6,860 bases of DNA from positions 1-6,860 of the forward strand of contig JAJZIF010000204.1 in NCBI GenBank assembly GCA_021810735.1, in the 5' to 3' direction. The DNA is from Acidobacteriota bacterium. Its GTDB lineage: Bacteria; Acidobacteriota; Terriglobia; Terriglobales; Acidobacteriaceae. Positions 1 to 6,860 of this stretch are shown here, piece after piece. How positions within the stretch are numbered: the first letter of the stretch is position 1; every line of letters starts with the position of its first letter. The notes below the pieces were generated by a model. That model had not been told where the DNA came from. It saw only the letters and a program-made list of their open reading frames with translations, and did not search any database. A program made the translations under genes and the position numbers.

Positions 1-191
1 AGAAATTGATCGATGGCACTGTCCGGGCCTTCCACCTCGACGGTCACGCCGGACGAGGAATTGAGGATGTAGCCGGCCAATCCAAGAGAATGTGCCAGGT
101 TGTAGATAAATGGGCGAAAGCCGACACCCTGCACCACTCCCCGAATGAAGATGTGCTTGCGTGCTGTCGGGAGAGAGCGGGTTGTGGCCAT
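1..191 (-). CDS. hypF: HypF, carbamoyltransferase of [NiFe]-hydrogenase maturation (N-terminal fragment, runs off the left edge)
   Basis: Only the first 63 codons are present. They match the acylphosphatase-like domain that opens HypF. Residues 17-28 read RGVVQGVGFRPF, the acylphosphatase signature, with the substrate-binding Arg at 26. Asn44 in NSSSGV is the second catalytic residue. The GFRPF form with proline after the arginine is typical of HypF rather than of stand-alone acylphosphatases. HypF uses carbamoyl phosphate and ATP to make the thiocarboxamide on HypE that becomes the CN ligands of the hydrogenase active site; it acts in the cytoplasm. The ATG at 191 is preceded by AGGA in CACAGGATTTCCC, at normal ribosome-binding distance. 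It is divergent from the lipoprotein gene at 380. The zinc-finger, YrdC-like and Kae1-like parts would lie beyond the window, so a free acylphosphatase is not fully excluded. Confidence 0.85.
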   Translation of the reverse strand, partial: MATTRSLPTARKHIFIRGVVQGVGFRPFIYNLAHSLGLAGYILNSSSGVTVEVEGPDSAIDQF

Positions 192-379
192 GGGAAATCC
201 TGTGCCGTGTACGCGAAGCCTGGGTTGCGCCCAAGTCTACCGCTGCAATCAGGGTATATGAGAGGGGAAGTTGTCGGCGAACGTTGCCTCTCGACCCGCA
301 GGCGCCTATCTCGCCGCTTTTCCAACGAGGAATCGAGGAGTCACACATCGCGGGGGCACTGTCCGGCATCTATATCCGG

Positions 380-730
380 ATGAAATGGATTGTTGCTGTG
401 TTGTTCGGTCTGGTGGGTCTAAGTGGTTGTACTGCGCCGAATCCAAGTCCCGCTCAAATTCGCCAGGATACCGCGAATGCCACGGCGGCGGCGGCTCGCG
501 ATAGCAAGGCGGTCGCGCAGGGAATCGTCGAGGGACTGAGGAGCAAAGGGCAGCTGAACATCGATCGCGCAAGCAAGTCGGATCTAGAGACCTTGCCCGG
601 AATCGATAGCGCTGCCGCGGACAGGATCGTTGCCGGCCGCCCGTATGACGATTCGGCGCAGTTACTCCGGCGGCACATCGTGACGCGCGCGGAATACGAT
701 CGAATTGCAAGCCGGATCGAAGTCCATTGA
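380..730 (+). CDS. Small lipoprotein with a ComEA-like helix-hairpin-helix domain
   Basis: This gene encodes 116 residues. The N-terminus has a Lys, then a hydrophobic stretch ending in a lipobox LSGC (residues 14-17), so Cys17 should be lipidated and the protein anchored in a membrane facing the periplasm. Residues 25-57 are Ala-rich and probably helical. Residues 58-116 hold a helix-hairpin-helix fold: LNIDRAS, then LPGI (72-75) followed by AADRIVAGRPY, as in ComEA and the related secreted domains. Such domains bind DNA in ComEA, but in short lipoproteins of this kind the role is unknown. The ATG at 380 is chosen because it places the signal peptide correctly; no good Shine-Dalgarno sequence precedes it, and a reading frame open back to 161 gives no sensible N-terminus. 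It is divergent from hypF and convergent with the cytochrome gene, so it is probably a single-gene transcript. Confidence 0.75.
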   Translation: MKWIVAVLFGLVGLSGCTAPNPSPAQIRQDTANATAAAARDSKAVAQGIVEGLRSKGQLNIDRASKSDLETLPGIDSAAADRIVAGRPYDDSAQLLRRHIVTRAEYDRIASRIEVH

Positions 731-795
731 AGCTGGTATGGGCGGCATGGCGACGCTCGTCCAGGGCAGCAGGGCCGCCATAGCTAGCGGAGAAA

Positions 796-837
796 TTTTA
801 GGGAAAGGTCGTGCGCTGCATGACCCTTCCCCTAAAA
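796..837. repeat. Long imperfect hairpin in the convergent gap
   Basis: TTTTAGGG with AAAGG at 796-808 pairs with CCCTTCCCCTAAAA at 824-837. The stem continues inward through TCGTGC and GCATGA to a 3-base GCT loop, giving about 19 pairs with a couple of bulges and G-U pairs. It lies between two genes that end towards each other. Unlike a normal intrinsic terminator, the outer stem is 5' T-rich and 3' A-rich, so the RNA of either strand does not end in a clear U-tract. It may still block or stabilise 3' ends. Confidence 0.55.
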
Positions 838-871
838 AATTGTTCACAAATGTTTCCAGTGTTGCAACGAC

Positions 872-900
872 AGAGGGCCAGCTAACAGTCCAGGCCCTCT
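872..900 (+). terminator. Perfect 8-bp stem-loop, possible terminator
   Basis: AGAGGGCC (872-879) and GGCCCTCT (893-900) form a perfect GC-rich stem around a 13-base loop. On the plus strand it is followed after five bases by a run of five T (906-910), which fits a weak terminator for the lipoprotein transcript. On the minus strand it lies about 40 bases after the cytochrome stop codon and could also trim that message, but no U-run follows there. Confidence 0.45.
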
Positions 901-941
901 TGAACTTTTTCCACTGCAGTTGTCCCGGCTGCTGCCGGCGA

Positions 942-1262
942 CTACTTCTTCTGCAACGTGTGAATATAGGCGACGACGTCCGTAATCTGCGCGCCTGTCA
1001 GCTTCCCGGAATACGCGGGCATTTTCCCCTTGCCGTTCTTCGTCGCCGCCACCAGTTCCGCCGTCGACATTTTCATGACTTCGGGCGAGCTGAAGGAAGG
1101 TGCCTTCATGGCCTTGCCGGCAGGTGTCGCGCCGCTGCCATCCGCGGCATGACACATCGCGCACTTTGTCTTGTAAATGTCCGCTCCTGGACCCTGGGCG
1201 AATACTGTCATTGTTGAAAATGCCATGACGCCAACCACTGCCAATGCAAATCGATTTTTCAT
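942..1262 (-). CDS. Periplasmic monohaem class I cytochrome c
   Basis: This gene encodes 106 residues. A signal peptide is clear: MKNR, a hydrophobic core, and VFA before Q23, a likely cleavage point. The haem site is CAMCH at 34-38. The distal methionine is probably Met81 in GKGKMPAY. The C-terminal helix DVVAYIHTL (95-103) is typical of small class I cytochromes. The mature protein of about 84 residues would be a soluble periplasmic electron carrier. The start at 1262 has a strong ribosome site, GAGGAG, 8 bases upstream. It is the last gene of the minus-strand block, 50 bases after the barrel gene. It most plausibly hands electrons to or from the decaheme cytochrome, as MtoD is proposed to do in Sideroxydans. 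Class and localisation are solid; the partner is inferred from context. Confidence 0.92.
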   Translation of the reverse strand: MKNRFALAVVGVMAFSTMTVFAQGPGADIYKTKCAMCHAADGSGATPAGKAMKAPSFSSPEVMKMSTAELVAATKNGKGKMPAYSGKLTGAQITDVVAYIHTLQKK

Positions 1263-1312
1263 CGTTCGATCTCCTCTTCAACTACAGTGCTGCCAACATT
1301 CGTAGGCCCAAA

Positions 1313-3877
1313 TCAAAATTCATAGTGCATTCCGATGGTCAAGTTGTTCGCATGAAAGTTCCGCGCCGCGGTCTCACCCGCGGGCGATATGGTTAGACCG
1401 GTCTGAAGACCAGCCAGTGTGGGAGAGTTGCAGGGAACCACGGCCACCGGAGACGTAGGCGTGGGATTGGAAGTGCTGCATAAAGCTGCGCCGGAAGGCC
1501 CGCCCTCGCCGTAGCCGTAGAAATTGTATTCTGCGCTCAGGCTCCAGGACTTACGGACCGCCCATGCAAAATTCACAAAGGGAGACTGGTACGTGGAGAC
1601 CAGCGAGCCATTCACATCCCGCGCATCGTTGAAGAACCGGCTACCGCTCACGGAGCTGATGATGTAGCCAATACTGGAGTGGATTCTGTCGGTAGGGGAC
1701 AGATGGAGAGCTACCGACCCGTACTGCGTCGGCGCATCCATGAAGTCCTTGACCGGCCCGAACTCGTAGTAGGTGGTTCCCCTCACGGTCGCGCCGGGGC
1801 ACGCCGTGCCGCTCGGCGTCGCTGCTCCAGGCAGCGTAGGGCTGGCGGCGGCGTCATAGCAGATGTTGGTCGACGTATACACATCGCCGTAGGAGTAGTT
1901 GAAATCGAACCCATAGTGCGCATTCGGCGACAGCACCCCACCCATGCTTACGACCCGGCTGTGGTCGACATGATCCAGCGATCCGGCTGCGGAGGCCGTG
2001 CCTGTGTTGTTCGTGTTGTTATGCCGTTCCACGCCGTTGTAGGCGCCCGACAGCGTCGCCCAGGGCTTCGGCCTGTAGATGGTATGGACCCTGTAGCGCT
2101 GCGTTTCCCGCGGAGTGAGCGGCGTGAATGCGTTGTCGTTATAGAACAGCCCGATGCTGCCATTGACGTTCCAATGCTCGCTGGGACGCAGGCCGGCGTT
2201 GAAGATTCCGCCGTTTTCGTGAATGGTGACGGTTCCGTTGTTGGTCGCGCGCGGGGCCAATGGAGCGTTATGAGGAATGCCTTCCGCGATGATGTGCGTT
2301 TGGTAGCGATAGGTCACCGAGAAGGTCGCGCGGGACCAGCCATCCCAGGTCGCCATCAGGTTGTTGGTCAGGAACTTCTGCCCGAAAAAGTCCGGCAGCG
2401 GCGTGCCGTTGGGGTTGCCCTCAACCGTGACCGGGGTTCCAGGCGTCAGTGGACCCGAGTAGTTGATGGTCTCATTCGGGTTCGGGGGCGTAACCAGAGT
2501 GGCCCCTTTGGAGATATTTGCGATGCCGGGTTGCTGGACATTGGAGAAGACAACCTGATCCGCAAGGCTGATCGTTTTCGTCGCATTCCAATCGATGCCG
2601 TAATCGACAGCGATGACCTCCCGTCTGGCATTCGCGTTGCCTGTATATGTGATGGAACGAACCGCCCCGGACAGTCCCTGGAAGTTCTCATAGTAATTGG
2701 GAAGGTTCATATTCGCGTTGGTGTAGCGCACATCGCCGTTCATCGCGACGTTCGGGATGCTGGAGCTTTGGAACCGGAAAATCTCCGTGGGGTACAAAAT
2801 GCGTGTCGGCTGGCTGCGAAGGTAGCTGACAGCGACACTGCATGCCGGATTGATGATGGGCAGCCCGCCTGGGGTTTGCGCGGGCGACAGGATCGTATAG
2901 GGCGCGGCGCCCATACTTCCCGTATTGCAGCTGCCGATGCCGTAAGGCGGAATGCTGTCCCATCCGCCCGGAGCCACCGGCGTTCCGTCCGCCTCCTGTG
3001 CGATGAAATCGCTCGGGGCCAGAGTAAAGTAGGAGCCTTCCTTGTAATGATCGACCTCTTCTTCAAAGGTCAGCGTGGTTTTCAGCAAGGGTTTCCAGTC
3101 GATCCCTCCGATAAAATCGTCGGTGCTGTTGCGTTGATACTGCTCGAGCAGTTGAGTATTCGTGCCGATCGAGGCTGCAAAGAAGGGGCTCGACGCGCCG
3201 GGACTCAGGCTCGGGCCCTGGAATACATTTTGCGAGTATTCGAAATGGTACGTGACCTTGGAGATCGGAAAGATCGTAAGGCTCGTGTCCGTCATCCTCC
3301 GCACTGTGTTGTACAGGAATGGTGACTGCTTCACCTGCGGCCATGCAAGCGAGCCCGTGGGCGCAGTGGTTGGCCCGATGGGGATCGACTGCCCTGCGGG
3401 GATGTTCGGGTTGCCCAGCAGGTCGTAATCGAAGTACTGGCGATCGCGCCGGAACGTTCCCGAGAACTGGTAGATTTTGCCTTTGGAGAAGTTCATCGTG
3501 GCTTGGTCGTATGGGTTCCCGCCCCACCCGGTGCTGTAGGCCGTCAGGGAATCGACAAGCGTATGCTTTGTGGTCGGCAACGCCTGCATCTGAAAGGAGC
3601 TGCCCAGCACGCGCGGCCCGGACTGCATATTGACCATCGTGTCGTACATGGCCCCACTGCCTGTGAGGCTGGTCATGTTCCCGCCCAGATTGATGCTCCC
3701 GTGGAGCGTATATCCATTCGGCGCAGCCGACGCAGAATCCGGCATCGCAACCTGGGCGGCAGCGACGCCCGCGATCATCAGCAATATGGCGACTCCCATG
3801 CCCCCGGCGATACGCTGGACCATTGCGAGAGAGAGCTTTTGATGGTGCAGCCTTGAAAGTTCATCTGTCTTCTTCAT
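1313..3877 (-). CDS. Outer-membrane beta-barrel porin, MtrB/PioB-like, partner of the decaheme cytochrome
   Basis: This gene encodes 854 residues. It has a long n-region and a hydrophobic segment (24-41) ending in AAA before Q42, a likely signal peptide. The rest is full of alternating aromatic and polar strands, with long Gly/Pro/Asn-rich loops. The C-terminus is HYEF, the terminal Phe expected for BAM-dependent insertion. RRDRQYFDYDLLGNP lies at 143-157 and looks like a conserved early strand pair. There is no TonB box, plug domain or SusC-like feature. Its place 56 bases after a decaheme cytochrome gene is the main reason to call it the sheath of a porin-cytochrome conduit. It is longer than Shewanella MtrB (about 700 residues). 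The N-terminal CXXC of Shewanella MtrB is absent; instead six cysteines form three close pairs (317/346, 673/693, 800/816). The start at 3877 has GAGG 8 bases upstream. Barrel and export are firm; the exact family is an inference. Confidence 0.8.
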   Translation of the reverse strand: MKKTDELSRLHHQKLSLAMVQRIAGGMGVAILLMIAGVAAAQVAMPDSASAAPNGYTLHGSINLGGNMTSLTGSGAMYDTMVNMQSGPRVLGSSFQMQALPTTKHTLVDSLTAYSTGWGGNPYDQATMNFSKGKIYQFSGTFRRDRQYFDYDLLGNPNIPAGQSIPIGPTTAPTGSLAWPQVKQSPFLYNTVRRMTDTSLTIFPISKVTYHFEYSQNVFQGPSLSPGASSPFFAASIGTNTQLLEQYQRNSTDDFIGGIDWKPLLKTTLTFEEEVDHYKEGSYFTLAPSDFIAQEADGTPVAPGGWDSIPPYGIGSCNTGSMGAAPYTILSPAQTPGGLPIINPACSVAVSYLRSQPTRILYPTEIFRFQSSSIPNVAMNGDVRYTNANMNLPNYYENFQGLSGAVRSITYTGNANARREVIAVDYGIDWNATKTISLADQVVFSNVQQPGIANISKGATLVTPPNPNETINYSGPLTPGTPVTVEGNPNGTPLPDFFGQKFLTNNLMATWDGWSRATFSVTYRYQTHIIAEGIPHNAPLAPRATNNGTVTIHENGGIFNAGLRPSEHWNVNGSIGLFYNDNAFTPLTPRETQRYRVHTIYRPKPWATLSGAYNGVERHNNTNNTGTASAAGSLDHVDHSRVVSMGGVLSPNAHYGFDFNYSYGDVYTSTNICYDAAASPTLPGAATPSGTACPGATVRGTTYYEFGPVKDFMDAPTQYGSVALHLSPTDRIHSSIGYIISSVSGSRFFNDARDVNGSLVSTYQSPFVNFAWAVRKSWSLSAEYNFYGYGEGGPSGAALCSTSNPTPTSPVAVVPCNSPTLAGLQTGLTISPAGETAARNFHANNLTIGMHYEF

Positions 3878-3933
3878 ATCGAACCTCGCTTCGAAAAAAC
3901 GTCAAGACATCAAAACCGCTGAGTTGGCCATCA

Positions 3934-4860
3934 TCACCGAATGAAAGCGGCATTGAGGTTGGATCCGTGGATCATGGTGTGGCAGCCGGTGCAGGGTGTT
4001 AGCTCTTGCGATCCCGGGTTCATCCCGTGGATCGTATCGGCGCTCACCTGGCTATGGCACTGGTTGCACAATGTATTGATCGTCGGCATATTCAGCAGCC
4101 GGGCGTTCTGAGAGCCGTGCGGCGTGTGGCACGCCATGCACCCTTCCCCTTTGACCACGGCGTGCTCATATACGAATGGCCCGCGCACATCCATATGGCA
4201 TTTGGTGCAGATCATGTTCTGATCGGCGGTAATTCTCAAATTGCTGTTCTGGAATGTTCCGTGCGCGTCGTGGCAGTCGGTACAGTTGACTCCACCTTCG
4301 TTCACCGGGTGGTGGAATGGCATGTCGAATGACCCCTTCACGTCGGTGTGGCAACTGAGGCACAACGTCGGCTGCGGCAGTTTCAGCAGGGCCTGTTCGC
4401 TCTGCGGGGCGTGAATGCTATGACAACTGATGCAGCTCAGGCCGGCCTTGGCATGGGGCGAGCGCTCGAAATTCGGATGCACTCCAGCATGGCATCCCAG
4501 GCAAGTCGCATCGATCTGACTGGCGGGTGCCTTGCTGGGCAGGAAGATCTTGGTGATCTCTCCGCCGCTGTCCACGTGGGCTTGCCCCGGTCCGTGACAG
4601 CTCTCGCACGTAATGCCCTTGCCATTGTGCATAAGCGCAAGCTTGGAATGCGGGTTGTTGGCAAAGTTCTTGCCCACTTCCGCATGGCAGGTCAGACAAG
4701 TCTCGGAGCCAACGTAGCCGGGTGCCCCGGTCGTGGCCGTCGGGGGAGTTTGGGGTGCGTTGGTCTGCTGACCGGTCTTACCCGCGGCATACACCGGTCC
4801 GGTATTCCAGAGTCCGGCTAGTCCGACGACCAGCGCAACACATAGGAGCAAACGTTTCAT
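3934..4860 (-). CDS. Periplasmic decaheme c-type cytochrome, DmsE/MtrA family
   Basis: This gene encodes 308 residues. A signal peptide covers residues 1-25 or 26 (MKRLLL, hydrophobic core, VYAA). After a Pro/Thr/Gln-rich linker, ten CXXCH haem sites begin at Cys 55, 85, 120, 143, 167, 193, 218, 241, 265 and 290, evenly spaced at 22-35 residues, with many extra His for bis-His ligation. YVGSETCLTCH, CESCHGPG with AHVDSGG, and the ending CTGCHTMIHGSN are typical of the DmsE/MtrA family. The size also fits MtrA (about 330). These proteins pass electrons through an outer-membrane barrel. The frame is open upstream to 5376, but the ATG at 4860 is chosen because GGAGG precedes it by 4 bases and it creates the signal peptide; the upstream extension is low-complexity and lacks one. 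It is the first gene of the block, followed by the barrel and the small cytochrome. Confidence 0.95.
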   Translation of the reverse strand: MKRLLLCVALVVGLAGLWNTGPVYAAGKTGQQTNAPQTPPTATTGAPGYVGSETCLTCHAEVGKNFANNPHSKLALMHNGKGITCESCHGPGQAHVDSGGEITKIFLPSKAPASQIDATCLGCHAGVHPNFERSPHAKAGLSCISCHSIHAPQSEQALLKLPQPTLCLSCHTDVKGSFDMPFHHPVNEGGVNCTDCHDAHGTFQNSNLRITADQNMICTKCHMDVRGPFVYEHAVVKGEGCMACHTPHGSQNARLLNMPTINTLCNQCHSQVSADTIHGMNPGSQELTPCTGCHTMIHGSNLNAAFIR

Positions 4861-4889
4861 AGAGCCTCCATTGCGGTTCAGACAGCTTT

Positions 4890-4908
4890 GTCGATTCTGA
4901 CAATCGAC
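4890..4908. promoter_or_regulatory. 7-bp inverted repeat in the leader of the decaheme gene
   Basis: GTCGATT and AATCGAC flank a 5-base spacer. It lies 30-48 bases before the decaheme start codon, so it could be an operator or a hairpin in the 5' leader just ahead of the ribosome site. Confidence 0.4.
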
Positions 4909-4942
4909 TCGCATTGCGTGAACATCATCGATTGCGACAGAA

Positions 4943-4956
4943 GAGATTAGAATCTC
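4943..4956. promoter_or_regulatory. 14-bp palindrome GAGATT-AG-AATCTC
   Basis: Six-base arms are perfectly complementary around a central AG. It lies about 85 bases upstream of the decaheme start. On the minus strand it includes TCTAAT, which resembles a -10 box, though no matching -35 is seen. A regulator binding here could overlap the promoter of the cytochrome block. Confidence 0.4.
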
Positions 4957-4969
4957 CCGCGTTTGCTTG

Positions 4970-4987
4970 CAGTGATGGTCGTCACTG
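4970..4987. promoter_or_regulatory. 18-bp dyad CAGTGA-N6-TCACTG
   Basis: Perfect 6-base arms surround a 6-base spacer, a geometry common for dimeric helix-turn-helix activators. It sits about 110 bases upstream of the decaheme start and just beyond the GAGATT palindrome. The binding protein is unknown and is not encoded in the window. Confidence 0.4.
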
Positions 4988-5166
4988 ATGTTGGAGTGAG
5001 CGCCATACCGCGGATTTACAGGCGCGATACCGCATAGCGCGGCCTCGGAAAGATGTGTTTCACGCTGGAGGTTTCGCGTGCGTTTTCGAGGAGATCGGCA
5101 AGGATTGCGGCGTGGATTTGCCGGAGAGCGTGGACTGTGCGCGGACGACGCCAGAGGAAAGCGATC

Positions 5167-5201
5167 GCAGTTTTGCAGTTTTACTGGTGCGGCAATGCCG
5201 C
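5167..5201. promoter_or_regulatory. Tandem GCAGTTTT repeat followed by a 13-bp palindrome
   Basis: GCAGTTTT occurs twice head to tail at 5167-5182. The second copy overlaps a small dyad CAGT-TTT-ACTG. At 5189-5201 lies GCGGCA-A-TGCCGC, a perfect palindrome about a single base. TTTTGC (5171-5176) and GCAAAA (5202-5207) bracket it. All lie 120-155 bases upstream of the dehydrogenase start and may be regulator sites. Confidence 0.35.
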
Positions 5202-5222
5202 GCAAAATTGAACTGTCATCCT

Positions 5223-5269
5223 GATGCGACGCATCTCTGTATATGTATTCTCCTCGGAATAAACCGAGG
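5223..5269 (+). promoter_or_regulatory. Palindrome and leader hairpin upstream of the dehydrogenase
   Basis: GATGCG-A-CGCATC (5223-5235) is a perfect 13-bp palindrome just before TATATG (5240-5245), a possible -10 box. It is followed by CCTCGG-AATAAA-CCGAGG (5252-5269), a 6-bp stem with a 6-base loop that would sit in the 5' leader. The arrangement suggests an operator at the promoter, but no clear -35 element was found. Confidence 0.35.
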
Positions 5270-5320
5270 TTCTTCGCGCTCTCTCTGGTGGATGACATTG
5301 TTTGCCCGGAAAGGAAGCAC

Positions 5321-6313
5321 ATGAAAGCCGCGATTCTGAATTCTCCAGTTGGCATTTCCGGCCACGCTCTTCGCATCGAGGACGTGCCCCGGCCTCACGC
5401 GGAACCCGGTCAGGTCCTTCTGCGCGTCCGCGCCTGCGGCGTCTGCCGTACCGACCTGCACATCCTCGCAGGAGAACTTCCGCCCCGGCGTGAAAAGTTG
5501 ATTCCCGGTCATCAAATTGTGGGCGAGATTGTCGAAGGCGAGACGCTGGAACTGCCCGCCGGGACGCGTGTCGGCGTTTCCTGGATGGGCGGCGTGGACG
5601 GGACCTGCTGGTACTGCCGGCATGACTCCGAGAACCTGTGCGATGCGCCGACCTTCACGGGGTATACCGTGAATGGCGGCTATGCGGAGTATGCGACCGC
5701 CAGGGCTGATTTTGTTTTTCCTCTCCCAGAAGCTTTGGACGATCTGCACGCCGCGCCGCTGTTGTGTGCCGGCATCATTGGGTTTCGCAGTCTGCGCGTG
5801 GCCGGCGTCCTGCCCGGCGAGTGCGTGGGCTTGTTCGGTTTCGGCGCGTCCGCTCACCTCGCGATTGCCGTCCTGCGCGCCTGGAAGTGTAACGTGTATG
5901 TCTCGACGCGCGGGGCGTCTCATCGCCGCCTGGCCGAATCTCTTGGCGCTACGTGGGTGGGAAGCGAGACCGAGAAACCTCCAGTGAAATTGGACCGTGC
6001 CGTGACCTTTGCGCCCAGCGGCGATGTTGTTGTCGCAGCGCTTTCGTGTTTGCGCAAAGGCGGCGTGGTGGCCATCAATGCGATTCATCTGGATAAAATG
6101 CCTGCGTTCGACTATGACAAACTGCTGTGGGGCGAGCGGCAGATTCGCAGCGTTGCGAATATGACGCGGGCGGACGCGCGCGACTTTCTCGAAGTTGCGG
6201 CGGAAATTCATCTGGAGTCGAAAACGGCCGCATTTTCTCTGGACAATGTGAATGACGCGCTGCAGGCGATCAAGGACGACGCCATCGATGGCGCGGCGGT
6301 GATTCTTCCTTGA
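5321..6313 (+). CDS. Zinc-dependent alcohol dehydrogenase family protein (medium-chain dehydrogenase/reductase)
   Basis: This gene encodes 330 residues, the usual length for the short zinc-alcohol-dehydrogenase subfamily. The GroES-like catalytic domain has ACGVCRTDLH (38-47) with Zn ligand Cys42, PGH with His64, and a likely third ligand, Cys149, in LLCAG. The Rossmann domain has GFGASAH at 173-179 for NAD(P). The lobe that binds structural zinc reads DGTCWYC to ENLC (93-107): Cys96, Cys99 and Cys107 are present, but the first expected Cys is Asp93. It should be a cytoplasmic enzyme converting an alcohol and an aldehyde; the substrate cannot be told. The acidic residue that marks NAD preference at the end of the second Rossmann strand is not evident (VSTRG). 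The ATG at 5321 is chosen over 5243 because AAGGAA lies 4 bases upstream and the protein begins MKAAIL as in homologues. It is divergent from the cytochrome block. Confidence 0.92.
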   Translation: MKAAILNSPVGISGHALRIEDVPRPHAEPGQVLLRVRACGVCRTDLHILAGELPPRREKLIPGHQIVGEIVEGETLELPAGTRVGVSWMGGVDGTCWYCRHDSENLCDAPTFTGYTVNGGYAEYATARADFVFPLPEALDDLHAAPLLCAGIIGFRSLRVAGVLPGECVGLFGFGASAHLAIAVLRAWKCNVYVSTRGASHRRLAESLGATWVGSETEKPPVKLDRAVTFAPSGDVVVAALSCLRKGGVVAINAIHLDKMPAFDYDKLLWGERQIRSVANMTRADARDFLEVAAEIHLESKTAAFSLDNVNDALQAIKDDAIDGAAVILP

Positions 6314-6645
6314 CACAGCCTGTTCGCCGGATTTCCTGAAAATGCGCCACCGATTTCCGGAATATTTTCGGCGCTGGAAAGCACTCCGAAAAAAACAAGT
6401 TGCCTTAGCAACCAAAGATGACCAAATAGTTGCTAAGGCAACTATATAAAATGGACGAAAAGTGACGCCGATTTTCTGTCGGCGGGACACGTGACCGTGG
6501 CCGCCTTCTCCGATTCCATCGCGCGGTTCAATATAGGATGGAAGAAACGAACTCAAAACGCATCGCGGCCGCCGAGGGAGACGGTTTCCAATCGACAACC
6601 CTCGAATCCGATCGGCCGCATCGCAAGAAGGAGTGAAAAAAGATC
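6314..6645. other. Intergenic region between the dehydrogenase and gpmA
   Basis: There is no convincing gene in these 332 bases. The first part has no clear terminator after the dehydrogenase. The middle holds the double palindrome at 6398-6443 followed by the AT-rich TATATAAAA. The last part should be the gpmA leader. A 32-codon frame at 6538-6636 (ATG to TGA) ends directly after the gpmA ribosome site AAGGAG (6628-6633), but it has no good ribosome site of its own and no recognisable product. Confidence 0.55.
6398..6443. promoter_or_regulatory. Double operator-like palindrome, 15-bp inverted repeat of AGTTGC-N4-GCAAC units
   Basis: The arms at 6398-6412 and 6429-6443 are perfect inverse copies of 15 bases with a 16-base spacer. 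Each arm is itself a dyad: AGTTGC-CTTA-GCAAC and AGTTGC-TAAG-GCAACT. The second extends to TAGTTGC and GCAACTA. The two dyad centres are 30 bp apart, close to three helical turns, so two dimers would sit on the same DNA face. TATATA follows at once (6443-6448) and could be a -10 box. The unit resembles MarR-family operators in shape. As RNA on the minus strand it would form a long hairpin followed by TTGTTTTTTT, so a terminator role is the alternative, although no minus-strand gene is seen upstream of it. Confidence 0.6.
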
Positions 6646-6860
6646 ATGGAAACCAATAAGCTTGTTCTGCTTCGGCACGGAGAAAGTATCTGGAACAAAG
6701 AAAACCTGTTTACCGGCTGGACGGACGTGGATCTTTCCGAGCAGGGCAGAAAAGAGGCCAGCGAGGCGGGCCGATTGCTGAAGGCGGAAGGGTATGCGTT
6801 CGACGTGGCCTTCACCTCAGTGTTGAAGCGGGCCATCCGAACATTGAGGGTTGTGTCGGA
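6646..6860 (+). CDS. gpmA: 2,3-bisphosphoglycerate-dependent phosphoglycerate mutase (N-terminal fragment, runs off the right edge)
   Basis: The first 71 codons are present. [13 protein letters not shown] (5-17) carries the RHG motif with the catalytic His11, which becomes phosphorylated. [13 protein letters not shown] (20-32) and [12 protein letters not shown] (56-67) with Arg62 are characteristic of the cofactor-dependent mutase of glycolysis and gluconeogenesis, which interconverts 3- and 2-phosphoglycerate in the cytoplasm. The ATG at 6646 has AAGGAG at 6628-6633; the 12-base spacing is rather long. After RTL the usual Trp is Arg68, a small departure near the window edge. The full protein would be about 230-250 residues. 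It is preceded by the double palindrome about 200 bases upstream. Confidence 0.95.

Follow-up and report, generated by a model that had tools for sequence, protein, structure and literature searches.

The window analysed here is a 6,860-nucleotide stretch of an Acidobacteriota bacterium (GenBank assembly GCA_021810735.1, contig JAJZIF010000204.1, positions 1 to 6,860), and it carries three consecutive genes for a decahaem cytochrome, an outer-membrane barrel and a monohaem cytochrome. This block probably encodes an MtrAB-type conduit, to be joined by the monohaem cytochrome as a carrier and by an ImcH-like partner, and most likely used in the outward direction. From sequence and predicted structure an electron-conduit function is very likely, and outward use is likely. 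The block is a real, conserved block of the porin-cytochrome type and not a chance arrangement, because in 54 of 58 related loci a decahaem gene lies directly upstream of the barrel gene on the same strand (the contigs of the remaining four start at the barrel), and a monohaem gene follows the barrel within 1.2 kb in 49 of the 58. Published papers are cited throughout for particular passages of their text.

Family, fold and remote homology of the decahaem cytochrome and the barrel

Ten CXXCH motifs were found in the decahaem protein, at residues 55, 85, 120, 143, 167, 193, 218, 241, 265 and 290. Its score against TIGR03508 (DmsE family) is 257.4 bits for a curated cut-off of 192.2, which makes it a member, and its score against NF041028 (GSU2203 family) is 220.1 bits, below the cut-off of 325. 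The DmsE/MtrA identity proposed in the first-pass annotation, which was made from the letters of the window alone, is thus confirmed by the DmsE family model, which we take to cover MtrA-type proteins generally. The best match among solved structures is 6r2q_A (E 2.7e-35), and all ten CXXCH motifs are aligned with those of this MtrA (alignment judged by eye). The chain is labelled cystathionine beta-synthase in the database; it was taken as MtrA because the entry is the Mtr complex and because 6R2Q is named as MtrAB in PMC10654088.

The barrel protein contains no CXXCH. It matched no Pfam or NCBIfam model at E<=1, the MtrB/PioB models PF11854 and TIGR03509 included, no PDB entry was found for it by sequence, and the MtrB_PioB models gave matches in none of six relatives' genomes. 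Its predicted fold is MtrB-like, with 26 strands (counted on the model) and 9% identity to MtrB in the structure alignment, and unrelated barrels appear only in the lower rows of the fold-match lists. The MtrB/PioB assignment of the earlier annotation therefore fails as a family-model match and stands as an MtrB-like predicted fold with remote profile homology.

Profile homology was assessed with hhalign. The close barrel alignment (64 rows) was composed of the window, 49 loci and 14 proteins hand-picked from 120 listed, and omits, among the 58 loci, L001 (a near copy), four with a stop, a frame problem or X (L028, L047, L054 and L057) and three partial ones (L051, L053 and L055). The broadened alignment (24 rows) was composed of the window, four close loci and 19 of 20 divergent regions of the phylum described below (L120 omitted). 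The MtrB alignment was made of 17 of the 20 PF11854 loci of the phylum (L070, L072 and L077 omitted). As a control, 18 of 20 LptD loci were aligned (L136 and L152 omitted), LptD being a large barrel family with 26 strands. The broadened alignment matched the MtrB alignment end to end over 615 columns (99.4%, E 1.6e-21), while the LptD control matched neither (4.6% and 1.9%, respectively), as expected of a control.

Among the 24 members of the broadened family, PF11854 is matched by one (E 3.7e-4) and NF041027 (GSU2204 family) weakly by 13 (E<=0.01, best 1.4e-6; family cut-off 350 bits), the window barrel itself giving no match to NF041027. Each of the 17 bona fide MtrB matches both TIGR03509 and NF041027, and the GSU2204 family is called an MtrB/PioB family barrel in PMC13188914. 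In view of the broadened-profile homology, the negative LptD control and the NF041027 matches shared with bona fide MtrB, we read the window barrel as a putative member of the MtrB/PioB superfamily taken broadly, placed on a branch missed by the current models. The C-terminal residue is Phe or Tyr in all 50 close barrels. Public names of barrel relatives begin with 'FHA domain-containing' (P0019), 'TonB-dependent receptor-lik' (P0041) and 'Oar protein' (P0044), which are apparent misnamings.

Gene order and distribution in the phylum

All 58 related loci carry Acidobacteriota titles (the search reaching close relatives only), which supports the acidobacterial host that had been supposed. The earlier annotation proposed to look for the same gene order in related genomes, and it is present there: beyond the 54 loci given above, all 20 divergent regions have a cytochrome with 10 or 11 motifs directly upstream of the barrel, and 10 of them also have ImcH-like genes. 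The regions come from a search of 199 sampled genomes of the phylum with the close-alignment profile, by which a window-type barrel was found in 27 (weakest match 19.8 bits); in 26 of them the barrel match comes immediately after one to a decahaem (exception G110, 25 bits), and 19 of the 27 were examined at length to give the 20 regions.

Of the 199 genomes, 55 have PF11854 barrels, 75 have at least one of the two barrel kinds, and 7 have both, always at separate places. In 20 of the 27 genomes with a window-type barrel there is no PF11854 match, so surveys based on PF11854 would miss the putative route in these. At L121 (G137:C107) the two conduit kinds stand side by side, one pair consisting of a decahaem and a window-type barrel, the other of a further decahaem and a PF11854 barrel. 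In Silvibacterium bohemicum (S15) the cluster is present twice on a single contig (L005, L008).

A tree was built from 64 decahaems (window, 24 of the 58 loci, all 20 regions and 19 of 20 PF11854 loci), six rows being long-branched and L063 being left off as its decahaem was not readable as one open reading frame (ORF) with 9 or 10 motifs. A branch with 100/100 support separates the 19 decahaems beside PF11854 barrels from the 45 beside window-type barrels. If each decahaem is fitted to its own barrel, a split by barrel kind is to be expected, and the tree agrees with it.

Table 1. Coordinates of the conduit genes and of the sequences between and beside them
Feature	Position	Strand	Description
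Decahaem cytochrome gene	3934..4860	minus	ATG at 4860, 308 aa, DmsE/MtrA family, exported
Barrel gene	1313..3877	minus	854 aa, MtrB-like outer-membrane beta-barrel (predicted fold), ends in Phe
Monohaem class I cytochrome c gene	942..1262	minus	106 aa, exported, CAMCH
Decahaem/barrel intergenic gap	3878..3933	minus	56 bases
Barrel/monohaem intergenic gap	1263..1312	minus	50 bases
Spacer between divergent conduit and alcohol dehydrogenase genes	4861..5320	no strand	presumed promoter site

The three same-strand genes and the lengths of the two gaps annotated earlier agree with the ORF coordinates (Table 1), and the description of an exported ten-haem cytochrome, a barrel and a small exported cytochrome c agrees with the CXXCH counts and with the N-termini, all three of which look like export signals by eye. 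A purine-rich stretch, a possible ribosome site by eye, lies 5' of each of the three starts. The ordinary neighbours on the plus strand are a zinc alcohol dehydrogenase gene (TIGR02822, 5321-6313) and the start of a phosphoglycerate mutase gene (6646-6858). A short lipoprotein-like ORF with a helix-hairpin-helix domain (PF12836, 380-730, plus strand) converges on the conduit and has a counterpart only in L001 among the 58 loci. A gene with such a domain adjoins mtrC in some Betaproteobacteria (PMC8805035), a likeness that is probably a coincidence. Positions 3-191 (minus strand) encode an N-terminal HypF piece cut by the window end, which is an 805-residue frame in L001. Hydrogenase coupling in the window itself was rejected because, of the four loci nearest to the window (L001 to L004), just the near-identical L001 has hypF next to the conduit, and because the nearest genome (G001, completeness unstated) gave a single partial match of 41.6 bits to PF00374.

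Proposed electron path and alternative readings

The monohaem protein has one CXXCH and matches PF13442 (55 bits) and PF00034 (45.8 bits). Its probable axial Met is in GKM; at this site G.M is found in 64 of 75 sequences, and 10 of the other 11 have K-M or R-M, one being cut off. CcoP and cytochrome c6 are among its best solved relatives. The protein is likely a periplasmic shuttle.

An ImcH-like gene is present in 41 of the 58 loci, 40 with CX3CH (39 downstream, one upstream in L026) and a fragment in L057; several of the 17 loci without one have little downstream sequence. After PMC6295460, a protein was considered ImcH-like if it had N-terminal hydrophobic stretches and a CX3CH motif beside a NapC/NirT-like domain. 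The relatives' downstream protein has 5 to 7 motifs, a NapC/NirT-like part, CX3CH and, by eye, the N-terminal hydrophobic stretches. No ImcH-like gene was found near the conduit in L001 to L004 (4.1 to 10 kb downstream examined). The genomes of L001, L002 and L003 have one ImcH-like gene each, away from the conduit, and the window's lineage thus keeps the conduit and quinone halves apart. In G002 and G003 this gene stands behind monohaem, 11-haem and putative cytochrome b genes, and in G001 the 11-haem frame is broken into pieces. In twelve of the 58 loci there are also genes for proteins related to a 13-haem protein with a cytochrome b part and to an 11-haem one, and cydA is present in six; at L009 (13114-15273) the 13-haem protein is fused to a cytochrome b561-type membrane part, a CbcL-like layout, with an 11-haem neighbour.

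A Crp/Fnr-type gene lies 0.2 to 2.6 kb upstream of the decahaem gene in 32 of the 58 loci, mostly on the opposite strand (e.g. L003 3349-4050). This identity was confirmed by Pfam in seven of seven scanned, and 28 of the 32 regulators have CX2CX8C in their first 120 residues, perhaps a redox sensor as far as the motif goes. No Crp/Fnr remnant was found in the window by a tblastn search with the L003 regulator (best E 1.3). NiFe-hydrogenase subunit genes are found within 10 kb of the conduit in 10 of the 58 loci (L009, L011, L013, L022, L026, L041, L043, L044, L052 and L054), with a Hyb-like four-gene set at the Bryocella locus L041. The window genes include no surface cytochrome of the MtrC type, and none of eight relatives' genomes (completeness unstated) had an OmcA/MtrC match (TIGR03507) over the cut-off, G006 giving a weak one of 22.6 bits.

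From the computed families, predicted fold, homology and gene order, the following complex, electron path, direction and acceptor are proposed. The decahaem cytochrome would sit inside the MtrB-like 26-strand barrel in the outer membrane, its haem chain spanning the membrane, and the monohaem cytochrome would ferry periplasmic electrons to or from its inner end. The other half would be an ImcH-like inner-membrane quinol oxidase of NapC/NirT type, whose gene belongs to the conduit cluster in most relatives and to a separate one in the nearest. Electrons would pass outward from quinol to ImcH, periplasmic cytochromes, the decahaem and an external acceptor, for instance Fe(III) or humic matter. 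As the searches gave no surface cytochrome of the MtrC type, soluble or chelated acceptors would probably make direct contact with the decahaem at its outer end. The outward direction is suggested by the ImcH-like partner, ImcH being implicated in quinol oxidation only (PMC6295460), and by the hydrogenase and Crp/Fnr-type neighbours.

The same conduit could instead carry electrons inward, as proposed for MtoAB-MtoD and PioABC. The decahaem would then oxidise Fe(II) or some other external donor, and the monohaem cytochrome would hand the electrons on to the quinone pool or a terminal oxidase. A decahaem and a barrel with a small carrier and no MtrC are the Mto/Pio make-up (PMC10654088), and for the monohaem cytochrome its probable Met ligand and its solved relatives would suggest a high potential. 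Set against the ImcH-like genes downstream in 39 of the 58 relatives and against the hydrogenase and Crp/Fnr-type neighbours, inward flow is unlikely. Far less probable is a DmsEF-type conduit serving an extracellular terminal reductase of DMSO or another substrate and not metals: the decahaem does match a model named DmsE, but so do, or nearly so, the decahaems beside all 17 TIGR03509 barrels (of the TIGR03508 family or close), and no molybdenum reductase was present among the scanned window genes or noticed by eye near seven relatives, where no aimed family search was made. That the barrel is an unrelated transporter lying by chance beside a periplasmic decahaem, as the want of a family match and the TonB-dependent receptor and Oar names might suggest, is hardly credible given the MtrB-like fold, the profile homology, the conserved gene order, the sorting of decahaems by barrel kind and a predicted model in whose element list no plug domain was seen.

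Several observations count against the MtrAB-type conduit with outward use that we prefer. The close 64-row alignment gave 3.7% (no homology) against the 17 PF11854 barrels of the phylum, and the profile link of the window barrel to MtrB thus depends on divergent relatives. Ten of the 20 divergent barrels (L114 to L120 and others) lack the C-terminal Phe or Tyr usual for outer-membrane barrels, possibly through extra C-terminal residues or other reading frames. The window has no quinone module and no Crp/Fnr gene, and hypF only as a cut piece. No monohaem gene lies within 1.2 kb downstream in nine of the 58 loci (two of these contigs end there), so the block does not always include this gene. 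A monohaem cytochrome with a probable Met ligand is also reminiscent of the Mto pattern seen in Fe(II) oxidisers. Finally, PMC5900883 argued that the acidobacteria studied, these genera included, do not use Fe(III) reduction like that of Shewanella or Geobacter.

Significance and comparison with known systems

The view that such a route is little studied in the phylum holds only in part. Candidates for mtrA/mtrB were reported in S. bohemicum, T. gabretensis, Granulicella and others, with complete mtr/omc operons in none (PMC5900883), MtrCAB in five Acidobacteriia with no quinone enzyme near (PMC8805035), and a porin-cytochrome cluster in a Holophaga, the first of the phylum to its authors' knowledge (PMC7399161). 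Homologues of PioA, PioB and PioC are described as widespread in Proteobacteria and Acidobacteria (PMC10654088). A largely open-access literature search, in the passages it returned (PMC8100337, PMC6344600 and PMC12977616 among them), gave no description of this barrel type or of an imcH-linked cluster.

It is possible, the odds being a little short of even, that a second class of MtrAB conduit has been overlooked in acidobacteria from acidic soil and peat and elsewhere in the phylum. Its barrel would escape the MtrB/PioB models, one cluster would link it to an ImcH-type quinol oxidase, and in place of any surface cytochrome the tip of the decahaem would itself reduce dissolved Fe(III) or humics. 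Outside electron transfer in these genera is unsettled, Fe reduction having been proposed from decahaem genes (PMC3669403) and no complete mtr/omc operon having been found in PMC5900883; if the conduit reading is true, the missing pieces are present under unrecognised names. Named strains such as Silvibacterium bohemicum or Granulicella would then have a concrete gene set, and a new barrel profile is provided for searches. In the relatives, MtrAB-like genes stand in one cluster with an imcH-like gene, whereas a 2018 survey reported no mtrAB/mtoAB next to imcH (PMC6295460). ImcH-type enzymes have been rated as some of the best markers of extracellular electron transfer (PMC12977616).

Compared with MtrAB (Shewanella baltica Mtr complex, 6r2q; PF11854/TIGR03509), the window has ten aligned decahaem motifs, the MtrB fold as predicted and adjoining genes, whereas its barrel is distant in sequence and unseen by the family models; unlike MtrCAB, it has a monohaem cytochrome in the block instead of MtrC, which was not found there. 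GSU2203/GSU2204 of Geobacter, up-regulated with hematite and magnetite (PMC4070692), are approached through the NF041027 matches of the broadened family and the 220 bits of the window decahaem to NF041028, but this score is under the cut-off, and the window barrel has neither an NF041027 match nor CXXCH. With MtoAB-MtoD and PioABC the window shares a decahaem, a barrel and a small periplasmic carrier without MtrC; it differs in a barrel unseen by the MtrB/PioB models and in its lineage's quinone partner, which is ImcH-like and not CymA. The relatives' protein resembles Geobacter ImcH in its N-terminal hydrophobic stretches, NapC/NirT-like part and CX3CH (by the description in PMC6295460), although its gene is not in the window. 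Lastly, whereas group 5 of PMC8805035 (MtrCAB of Acidobacteriia, Bryobacterales and unclassified) has MtrC, a sequence-detectable MtrB and no quinone enzyme nearby, it shares with the window its phylum and an MtrA-type decahaem adjoining a barrel.
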